A stretch of 64,000 bases of DNA from Candidatus Tenderia electrophaga (GTDB lineage Bacteria > Pseudomonadota > Gammaproteobacteria > Tenderiales > Tenderiaceae). The notes beneath the pieces are model-generated. The model was not told the DNA's origin, did not search any database, and worked only from the letters and a program-made list of their open reading frames with translations. Shown here one piece after another: positions 61,556-63,900 of this stretch. Made by a program: the position numbers and the translations under genes. The DNA lies in NCBI GenBank assembly GCA_001447805.1, contig CP013099.1, positions 1,612,001 to 1,676,000 of the forward strand. Reading direction: 5' to 3'. Every line of letters starts with the position of its first letter. Within the stretch, counting starts at the first letter, position 1.

Positions 61556-61632
61556 AGGCGCGTAGCTCAGTTGGTTAGAGCACCACCTTGACATGGTGGG
61601 GGTCGTTGGTTCGAGTCCAATCGCGCCTACCA
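61556..61632 (+). tRNA. tRNA-Val (GAC)
   Basis: A 77-nt cloverleaf with encoded CCA. The acceptor stem AGGCGCG/CGCGCCT is fully paired; the anticodon stem is CCACC/GGTGG with anticodon GAC at 61590-61592; the T-loop is GGTTCGAGTCC. It reads GUC and GUU codons. Confidence 0.95.
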
Positions 61633-61791: not shown

Positions 61792-62091
61792 ATGTACGTT
61801 TGCATCTGCCATCGGATTACCGACATTCAAATCAGTGAAGAGGTGGCCAAAGGGGCCGACAGCCTGCGTGAGTTGAACAAGCGGCTGGGGGTCGCGTCTC
61901 AGTGCGGCAAATGCCGTCAATGCGCCAAGCAGGTGCTGCAACAGGCGATCAGTGAGTCGTGCAGCGCCGCTCCCGACCGTGCTGGCGTGGATTCACCTCA
62001 GCCCTGTGCTGCACGATCAGCTCACGGCCATCAATCAATATTTCCTGCACGCCGGAATGTTCAAGAAGCGGGGGCTGAAGCGGCTCAATAA
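61792..62091 (+). CDS. bfd: Bacterioferritin-associated ferredoxin, with a run-on C-terminus
   Basis: The first about 60 residues are a standard Bfd: C4 and C6 (MYVCICH), then C38 and C41 (QCGKCRQC), which bind a [2Fe-2S] cluster used to release iron from bacterioferritin. I favour ATG 61792, 6 nt after GAGGA; ATG 61786 is in frame. Instead of stopping at about residue 64, the frame runs on for about 35 residues through the remains of bfr in another frame, so the native stop seems to have been lost when the two genes were joined. Confidence 0.85.
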
Positions 62092-62190
62092 GGCCGACTA
62101 CCGAACCCCCTCTCTATCGGTAAGGATGTGGAACAGCATGATTGACACGCTGGGGCGGGAGCATTCTCTGCAATCGCACATCTGATCCGG
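61976..62190 (+). pseudogene. bfr: Degenerate bacterioferritin (bfr) fragment
   Basis: Directly after bfd, one frame reads [19 protein letters not shown] and [13 protein letters not shown] (to 62101), the N-terminal helix of bacterioferritin. The next about 29 codons of a normal bfr (with the SIDEMKHAD helix and LEGLPNLQ) are missing, and the sequence continues in another frame as [11 protein letters not shown] (62110-62142), then ends. The start codon is also gone. This is a pseudogene created by an internal deletion and frame change. Confidence 0.85.
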
Positions 62191-62217
62191 TGCGCAATCT
62201 CTGCCGGCATCACAAAA

Positions 62218-62250
62218 ACGTCATAAAAACTTCATCTATGTGTCATTAAA
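62218..62250 (+). promoter_or_regulatory. Pho-box-like direct repeats before the PAP2 gene
   Basis: Three 11-bp units in a row, ACGTCATAAAA, ACTTCATCTAT and GTGTCATTAAA, resemble PhoB-binding units (CTGTCAT plus four AT-rich bases). They end about 40 bp before the ATG of the PAP2 gene. Confidence 0.5.
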
Positions 62251-62291
62251 GCGTTTGACAATAGCTCTCAAAACGGGGGAGCACAAACGCC

Positions 62292-62819
62292 ATGCCTACC
62301 ATTGTCAACACCGTTACCAAATGTGATCTGATCGCCTTCCGCTGGTGTATGTCGCGCAAACGCCATGCCGAAATCGCCCGCTTGGCGCGCTGGATATCAA
62401 AGACCGGTGACGGTTACCTCTATGCCCTGATCGGCGTGCTGTTGTTATGGCTGGACGCCGAGTCCGGCCCACCCTTCGCCCTGGCGCTGTTGCTGGCCTT
62501 TGCCGTCGAGTTGCCCACCTATCTGGTGAGCAAGAATACCGTCAGGCGCCATCGCCCGGCGGATGCCATCGTCGGTTTCAGTTCCTTTCTGCAGCCCTCG
62601 GACAAGTTCAGTTTTCCGTCCGGTCATACCGCTGCCGCCTTTCTGTTTGCCAATGTTGTTGCGTTTTATTATCCGGCCTATGCGTTACCGGCCTACAGTG
62701 CGGCGTGCCTGATCGGCGTGTCGCGGGTCTTGTTGGGGGTTCACTTTCCCAGCGACATCGTGGCCGGTATGGCACTGGGGCTGGTAAGCGCCGAACTGGC
62801 GCTATGGATGCTGGGTTAG
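62292..62819 (+). CDS. PAP2-superfamily membrane phosphatase
   Basis: A 175-residue integral membrane protein. The acid phosphatase motifs are in order: KNTVRRHRP (K-x6-RP type), FSFPSGHTAA, and SRVLLGVHFPSD with the catalytic histidine. PAP2 enzymes of this kind dephosphorylate phosphatidate, undecaprenyl pyrophosphate or similar lipids; the substrate is unknown here. A candidate Pho box precedes it, and a glycosyltransferase gene starts 11 bp after its stop. Confidence 0.9.
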   Translation: MPTIVNTVTKCDLIAFRWCMSRKRHAEIARLARWISKTGDGYLYALIGVLLLWLDAESGPPFALALLLAFAVELPTYLVSKNTVRRHRPADAIVGFSSFLQPSDKFSFPSGHTAAAFLFANVVAFYYPAYALPAYSAACLIGVSRVLLGVHFPSDIVAGMALGLVSAELALWMLG

Positions 62820-62829
62820 GGGCGCGGGC

Positions 62830-63900
62830 GTGCGGATATTGTATGGCGTTCAGGGTACCGGTAATGGACATGTCACCCGTGCTCGGACCATGGCGCGGGC
62901 GCTGTCGGACTCCGGCCTGGAGGTGGATTATCTGTTTTCGGGACGGCCGCGGGATGGGTACTTCAACATGGAGCCCTTTGGTGATTTTCGTTGTTATCGC
63001 GGGCTCAGCTTTTGCTGGCATGACGGCCGCATCGATTATCTCGCCACCACGCTTAACAATAACCTGATCCGCTTGTTGCGCGATATCCGCTGTTTGGATT
63101 TGTCGAACTATGACTTGGTCATCACCGACTTCGAGCCTATTACCGCCTGGGCGGCCAAACGCAGCAAAACACCTTCGCTGGGTATCGGTCACCAATATGC
63201 CTTCCGCTTCGATAATGTGCCTACTTCCGGTCATACCGTGATCGGTAAGCTGCTGTTGGACCATTTTGCGCCCGCCCAGCGCACGCTGGGCTTCCATTGG
63301 CACCATTTCAACAGCGCCATACTGCCGCCGCTGATCGAGCCGCAGGCCCATACGATCAGTTGCGAGCCCGACAAGATCCTGGTGTATCTGCCCTTTGAAA
63401 ACAGCACGCGTGTGATTGAATTCTTACGCGTGATCAAGGATGTGGATTTCTATTTTTATTGCGCAGTCGATGCAGCGCGCGATGAACACAATCTGCATCT
63501 GCGACCCTTGGATCGCGAGGCGTTCCAGCGCGACTTGGCCAGTTGTAACGGCGTCATCGCCAACGCCGGATTCGGCCTCTTGAGCGAGGCCATCCAGGCG
63601 GGCAAGAAATTGCTGGTCAAGCCCATGCAGCGCCAGATGGAGCAGCTCTCCAACGCCGCGGCCATCGAAGCGCTGGAGATCGGGGAGGTGATGCAGGGCT
63701 TCAATCTCAGGCAGTTGCGCGAATGGCTGAGCGAAGAGTGTCCCGGGCCGCGGCCGTATCCCGATGTGGCCAAGGCCATTGTGGACTGGATCGAATCCGG
63801 TTTCGCCTTGGATGAAAATCACTTGGCGCAGCAATTATGGAGCAACTGTCTGCAGTTCCAGTTTCCCGCCGACGATGAGTCTGAGCCGGCCTACCTCTAG
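62830..63900 (+). CDS. Glycosyltransferase of the MJ1255/VC2487 family
   Basis: A 356-residue cytoplasmic protein. The N-terminal GVQGTGNGHVTRARTMARAL motif, ITDFEPITAWAAKRSKTPSL, and the C-terminal NAGFGLLSEAIQAGKKLLVKP with PMQRQMEQLSNAA are typical of this GT-B-like family. Its acceptor is unknown. GTG 62830 is used, 11 bp after the PAP2 stop, so the pair forms an operon. A link to lipid or cell-surface glycan changes under phosphate stress is an inference from the upstream Pho-like repeats. Confidence 0.85.
   Translation: MRILYGVQGTGNGHVTRARTMARALSDSGLEVDYLFSGRPRDGYFNMEPFGDFRCYRGLSFCWHDGRIDYLATTLNNNLIRLLRDIRCLDLSNYDLVITDFEPITAWAAKRSKTPSLGIGHQYAFRFDNVPTSGHTVIGKLLLDHFAPAQRTLGFHWHHFNSAILPPLIEPQAHTISCEPDKILVYLPFENSTRVIEFLRVIKDVDFYFYCAVDAARDEHNLHLRPLDREAFQRDLASCNGVIANAGFGLLSEAIQAGKKLLVKPMQRQMEQLSNAAAIEALEIGEVMQGFNLRQLREWLSEECPGPRPYPDVAKAIVDWIESGFALDENHLAQQLWSNCLQFQFPADDESEPAYL

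Follow-up and report, generated by a model that had tools for sequence, protein, structure and literature searches.

A tandem Pho box precedes a PAP2 phosphatase–glycosyltransferase pair, a candidate phosphorus-free glycolipid operon of Candidatus Tenderia electrophaga

Introduction

Does phosphate limitation govern a two-gene unit of Candidatus Tenderia electrophaga—a membrane lipid phosphatase followed by a glycosyltransferase—and, if so, what might the unit make? Aquatic bacteria that exchange phosphate-bearing for sugar-bearing lipids need less phosphorus, and their susceptibility to antimicrobial peptides and grazers is altered. Known remodelling pathways depend on PlcP together with Agt, and studies of mutants leave glycolipid synthases without an assigned gene. 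A Methylosinus plcP-agt mutant still makes monoglycosyl-DAG (PMC9239053), and P. aeruginosa possesses a further glycolipid for which there is no known glycosyltransferase (PMC8528852). The locus described here, found in a 64,000-nucleotide stretch of contig CP013099.1 (‘the window’), offers a concrete candidate glycosyltransferase family, whose promoter signature allows tests in culturable Vibrio, Marinomonas and Methylomonas.

Results

The two genes lie in the last 1.8 kb of the window, both on the + strand. The upstream gene (62292..62819) encodes a PAP2-type membrane lipid phosphatase of 175 aa (Pfam PF01569, E 2.9e-21), and the sequence GGGGGAG (62275..62281, + strand), 10 nt ahead of its ATG, is a likely ribosome-binding site. 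After a gap of 10 nt follows a gene with a GTG start (62830..63900), encoding a 356-aa GT-B glycosyltransferase (GT) with the Pfam domain Glyco_trans_1_3, which scored 234.6 bits, against a curated cut-off of 195.9, with the TIGR00661 model of the MJ1255/VC2487 family. A preliminary description of this DNA had coupled a PAP2 gene to an MJ1255-type GT, and the domain scores and the narrow gap uphold that pairing. Upstream of the locus, the window contains a tRNA-Val (gac) gene (61556-61632) and, behind a bfd-like gene, a coding remnant of bacterioferritin (61945-62186); bacterioferritin genes are far better kept at the same place in the congener G003 (L002 3043-3903).

Ahead of the PAP2 gene stands a tandem Pho box of four 11-bp units (62207..62250, + strand). 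Three units with TCAT cores had been described previously, and are present at 62218-62250 (ACGTCATAAAA / ACTTCATCTAT / GTGTCATTAAA); a further unit, GCATCACAAAA, continues the register upstream (62207-62217) and had gone unmentioned, as had the geometry of the -10 element. The four-unit array scored 11.1, the maximum for the window, the next independent site reaching 6.5. Scoring with a PhoB matrix, as had been suggested for this site, gave 12.6 bits for the best single 18-bp box (ACTTCATCTATGTGTCAT, 62229..62246, + strand) with an E. coli matrix (shuffle P 0.003 in the 200-nt upstream region). As a single box, however, the site is unexceptional, because 35 sites across the window attain its count of 10/14 consensus positions, and the single-box score was dropped as proof at the level of the window for this reason. 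The array is therefore beyond chance as a tandem, though not as a single box.

The predicted -10 hexamer, GACAAT (62257..62262, + strand), begins exactly 10 nt past the last TGTCAT. A composite of two units, a 10-nt spacer (N10) and a -10 hexamer was scored using a matrix built from E. coli sites and from the organism's own phoB, pstS, second pst operon and plcP promoters, with the PAP2 site left out; the PAP2 promoter ranked first among 127,932 window positions (14.6, compared with 8.3 for the next). Two attributes of Pho-regulon promoters are thus seen at the PAP2 gene, namely direct upstream repeats of the 11-bp PhoB unit (four in register), and a box that takes the place of a -35 element at a fixed distance from the -10 (N10, then GACAAT). 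The motif TTGACA (62255-62260) was ruled out as a -35 element, no -10 being located 16-18 nt downstream of it, and the PhoB geometry fits better.

A PhoB, likewise expected of a Pho regulon, is encoded in the same genome (C1:2299737; TIGR02154, 346.4 bits against a cut-off of 296.2), as are several other response regulators of OmpR/PhoB type. By sequence comparison, the N10 spacing is common to the PAP2-GT promoter (TGTCAT-N10-GACAAT) and four more promoters of this genome: those of pstS (TGTAAT-N10-CATACT), the second pst operon (TGTCAT-N10-TATGAT), phoB (TGTAAC-N10-TCTAAT) and plcP (TGTCAT-N10-CATAGT). The identities of the pst genes were checked. The phoB gene, a histidine-kinase-like ORF, two PstS-like genes and the second pst operon are clustered (L161 and L162, G000:C1:2292000-2316000), with separate Pho boxes within the cluster.

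Roughly 1 Mb from PAP2-GT lies a separate Pho-boxed operon, absent from the preliminary description, in which plcP (C1:684809-685618) overlaps a GT4 gene; the best match of this GT4 was to an alpha-monoglucosyl-DAG synthase model (132.8 bits, under its cut-off). Since the plcP-GT4 operon is both Pho-boxed and separate, the organism would own two Pho-controlled glycolipid units.

Two congeners, G003 (L002) and G001 (L003), keep the PAP2-GT pair and an upstream region that can be aligned to the window across CTTCAT/CTTCAC and GCGTTTGACAAT/GCGTTTAACAAT; the tandem units are aligned in G003 and take a weaker form in G001. The pair is patchy, with a GT above the TIGR00661 cut-off in 2/6 sampled congeners. 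The PAP2 frame of G001 (L003 2407-2650, - strand) is shifted in its final third, reflecting either misassembly or a gene copy in decay. Further afield, TIGR00661 alone recovered mostly weak, unrelated GTs and was rejected as a probe. When an alignment of PAP2-linked GTs was run against 85,000 species genomes, more than 560 GT relatives emerged, the best 80 loci being retained. In most of these best 80 of >560 loci an orthologous PAP2 gene lay directly upstream of the GT, and the pair recurred in Vibrio, Marinomonas, Neptuniibacter, methanotrophs and Cellvibrio.

The preliminary description had staked its reading on conservation of the repeat upstream of orthologues and on co-occurrence of the pair with Pho boxes, and the reading survived on both counts. 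With the E. coli PhoB matrix, 67 dereplicated PAP2 upstream regions had a coding-strand median score of 11.4, compared with medians of 2.1 for the reverse strand, 1.6 for dinucleotide shuffles and 1.1 for 293 upstream regions of other genes from the same loci; a score of at least 10 bits was reached by 57% of PAP2 upstreams and 2.4% of other-gene upstreams (P 7e-26). A second comparison, using the consensus CTGTCATNNNNCTGTCAT from the literature (PMC11828411), agreed with the first: at least 10/14 consensus positions were matched on the coding strand in 70% of the 67 PAP2 upstreams, against 11% for other genes (P 1.4e-25) and 10% for the reverse strand of the same 67. When relatives were aligned on their best box, extra units emerged 11 and 22 bases upstream, and the -10 score peaked at a gap of exactly 10 nt after the box. 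Pho-box scores of plcP promoters, taken from 30 of these genomes, had a median of 9.5, and the promoters of the pair hence resemble Pho promoters no less than those of an accepted Pho gene do.

Upstream scoring found no convincing box at several loci (for example L046 and L060), and none at three TIGR00661 relatives not linked to PAP2 (L005, L006, L008), where the best score was 5.5. In Nitrosomonas-type loci lacking PAP2 (L085, L093, L107), a near-perfect box (CTGTCATTTTTCTGTCAT) stood directly before the GT. The Pho box therefore follows the GT, not PAP2 alone. Very strong Pho-box scores were also recorded upstream of a HemB-like gene that closely follows the pair in Marinobacterium (25.9 at about 6060-6260 of L032; 16.3 at about 5440-5640 of L038), where the boxes may serve a divergent gene.

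Lipid genes recurred around the GT. Its neighbours in the best 80 of >560 loci included plcP (6), Agt-type GT4 (3), DgkA (16) and YegS-type DAG kinase (4), with a patatin-like lipase adjoining two of the nearby plcP copies; no set of lipid A or polysaccharide genes was observed to recur near the GT in these 80. The proteins were called PlcP from a metallophosphoesterase domain, scores far under LpxH cut-offs, strong mutual identity and a plcP-agt-type arrangement. On a GT tree, quickly built and with some long branches, plcP adjacency switched 8 times and DgkA adjacency 3 times, and because these adjacencies change repeatedly the neighbourhood is not one inherited block. In an even class sample of 369 genomes the GT was present in 8 (about 2%; one distant hit was left out), and plcP occurred in 7/8 of these, compared with 96/361 (27%) of the others (Fisher P 7e-4). 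It was contiguous with the GT or within about 2 kb of it in 3/8 GT genomes of this sample, in the arrangements plcP-PAP2-GT (G257), plcP near a patatin-PAP2-GT-DAG kinase cluster (G331) and plcP-GT without PAP2 (G364). Among 50 scan genomes, plcP was found in 33 and was undetected in the Vibrio, Neptuniibacter and Marinobacterium genomes carrying the pair, where the pair itself would thus be the source of DAG. Membrane lipid remodelling, the function first proposed for the pair, gains support from its linkage to plcP, DgkA, YegS-type DAG kinase and Agt-type GT genes and from plcP co-occurrence.

The PAP2 protein has the three motifs of its superfamily, KX6RP (K81-R88-P89), PSGH (109-112) and SR-X5-H-X3-D (144-155), all invariant in 33 orthologues, and a helical membrane fold in its predicted structure (pLDDT 94.5). 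The nearest solved folds were LpxE (6ebu, Z 22.1) and B. subtilis PgpB (5jki, Z 19.4), which resemble it over the whole length of the fold and in the catalytic motifs, although identity is only 26-28%, and operon partner and regulation are unlike. The protein fell short of the NCBIfam models for the lipid A 1-phosphatase LpxE (12.8 bits against 177) and for the undecaprenyl-diphosphatases SepP (53.8 against 250) and YbjG (41.6 against 229).

For the GT, the predicted structure (pLDDT 92.2) is a GT-B fold closest to YojK, the yeast sterol glucosyltransferase UGT51 and MurG (Z 21-23). In common with MurG (Z about 21) and other GT-B enzymes of families GT1 and GT28, it has an N-terminal loop that is rich in glycine and contains an invariant His, and an E/Q/N nucleotide-sugar motif in its C-terminal part, at 12-18% identity. 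Set against GT28-type MGDG synthase (a GT-B fold with a DAG acceptor site), the model bears on the fold, which is that of MurG and the UGTs, and not on the acceptor. Fold likeness by itself does not point to one substrate, for PAP2 or for the GT.

Discussion

Regulation of PAP2-GT by PhoB is strongly supported by sequence comparison, and the lipid role moderately so by linkage. It appears reasonably likely that PAP2-GT is a PhoB-activated two-gene operon making a phosphorus-free glycolipid, PAP2 producing DAG and the GT glycosylating it; the unit would probably let cells swap phosphorus-containing membrane lipids for sugar lipids. At low phosphate, PhoB~P would bind the tandem 11-bp units and bring in RNA polymerase at the -10 element (62257). 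PAP2 would then strip phosphate from phosphatidate (or a related phospholipid phosphate), giving DAG and free phosphate, and the GT, with its MurG/UGT-like nucleotide-sugar site, would move sugar from a nucleotide sugar onto the DAG. That DAG is the acceptor we infer from the repeated linkage of the GT to DAG-producing and DAG-consuming genes. The distant Pho-boxed plcP-GT4 operon would yield DAG from existing phospholipids, and DgkA or YegS-type kinases may return surplus DAG to phosphatidate. The active sites of LpxE, a lipid A 1-phosphatase, and PgpB, a PGP phosphatase, face the periplasm. Were the PAP2 site likewise periplasm-facing, and the GT cytoplasmic as expected, DAG would need to cross the bilayer; DAG crosses bilayers readily. 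Besides this topology, several points count against the reading: PAP2 is missing at some GT loci, several loci have no convincing box, the pair is patchily distributed, and the fold class of the GT also glycosylates sterols, polyketides and lipid II.

A different division of labour under the same Pho control would have the GT extend the plcP-GT4 product, for example from monoglycosyl-DAG to diglycosyl-DAG or by a charged sugar, with PAP2 only salvaging the phosphate of phosphatidate. The genome does already hold plcP and a GT4 with sub-cut-off resemblance to alpha-monoglucosyl-DAG synthase, and plcP accompanies the GT in all but one of the eight GT genomes of the class sample. We nevertheless consider this unlikely: in Vibrio, Neptuniibacter and Marinobacterium the pair is present with plcP undetected, so that the GT there cannot need a plcP product, and in L119, L203 and L206 plcP and the GT adjoin without another GT, which implies that the GT uses DAG itself. 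Rather less likely again is an envelope role, also Pho-controlled, in which PAP2 would dephosphorylate lipid A, undecaprenyl pyrophosphate or PGP; the acceptor decorated by the GT would be a polyprenyl, lipid A or a polysaccharide. To this one could bring the identity of the nearest solved PAP2 structures (LpxE and PgpB), the weak NCBIfam matches to SepP and YbjG, and the fold that the GT has in common with MurG; every such NCBIfam match is far under its cut-off, however, and the neighbours that recur are DAG enzymes (plcP, DgkA, YegS-type kinase), not a lipid A or polysaccharide set.

That the units are a chance resemblance, or the site of another OmpR/PhoB-type regulator, and the pair is not phosphate-controlled at all, seems very improbable. 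Single boxes of equal consensus count are scattered through the window and the genome has further regulators of this type, but against this reading stand the tandem array, the -10 spacing, the likeness to the organism's own phoB and pst promoters and the enrichment across genera. We therefore retain the PhoB-activated, DAG-glycosylating operon as the preferred reading.

Comparison with known systems places the operon near, rather than within, the plcP-agt pathway. Remodelling by plcP-agt (Phaeobacter MED193 and Pelagibacter, PMC4796936; Methylosinus OB3b, PMC9239053) combines a Pho box, a DAG-former and a DAG glycosyltransferase, as PAP2-GT would by analogy, and makes monoglycosyl- or glucuronosyl-DAG under phosphate limitation; plcP itself is often beside the GT in relatives. 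The DAG-former of plcP-agt is, however, the PlcP metallophosphoesterase, where PAP2-GT has a PAP2 phosphatase, and its glycosyltransferase is the GT4 enzyme Agt, where PAP2-GT has a Glyco_trans_1_3/TIGR00661 GT. As both enzyme families differ, PAP2-GT is not a member of the plcP-agt operon type. P. aeruginosa, with PlcP (PA3219), Agt1 (PA3218) and Agt2 (PA0842), resembles the present genome in that one gammaproteobacterium has two separate Pho-boxed glycolipid units, although its known enzymes are both Agt homologues, unlike the MJ1255/VC2487-type GT (PMC8528852).

A Pho-boxed PAP2-GT unit occurs in many other water and soil bacteria. The literature found assigns no acceptor to the MJ1255/VC2487 family, and a lipid acceptor, if true, would for that reason annotate many hypothetical genes. 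A search of open-access papers, subscription papers being outside its scope, found none tying MJ1255, TIGR00661 or the PAP2-GT pair to the Pho regulon, nor any tying this GT family to phosphate-controlled lipid remodelling. V. cholerae VC2487 appeared in the searched literature solely for a ChiS ChIP peak upstream of the gene, a hint that some branches of the family answer to chitin, not phosphate (PMC11856585).

The GT is also encoded on four metagenomic viral contigs in IMG/VR, where phage-type neighbours are present and viral status is as assigned by IMG/VR; this GT was not found among the named phages of INPHARED. On two contigs plcP is directly beside the GT (L203, IMGVR_UViG_3300035180_003417, and L206, IMGVR_UViG_3300031813_001254; PlcP 43% and 31% identical, respectively, to that of the present genome) and on another it is one gene away (L205, IMGVR_UViG_3300036715_001865; 47%), which suggests virus-borne lipid-remodelling genes. 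A broader proposal, which in our judgement is evenly balanced between true and false, is that the MJ1255/VC2487 (TIGR00661) subfamily constitutes a further, unrecognised family of phosphate-controlled lipid GTs besides Agt, which gamma- and betaproteobacteria would pair with either of two exchangeable sources of DAG (PAP2 acting on phosphatidate or PlcP acting on phospholipids), and that some viruses carry plcP-GT to remodel host membranes in infection.

PlcP-like genes are also found in named phages. In the SAR11 phage Pelagibacter phage Mosig EXVC030M (L213, MT647606.1, 94129-94866), such a gene, annotated as UDP-2,3-diacylglucosamine hydrolase, is divergent to an adjoining putative phosphate ABC transporter gene, and Synechococcus phage S-SRM01 also has a PlcP-like gene.
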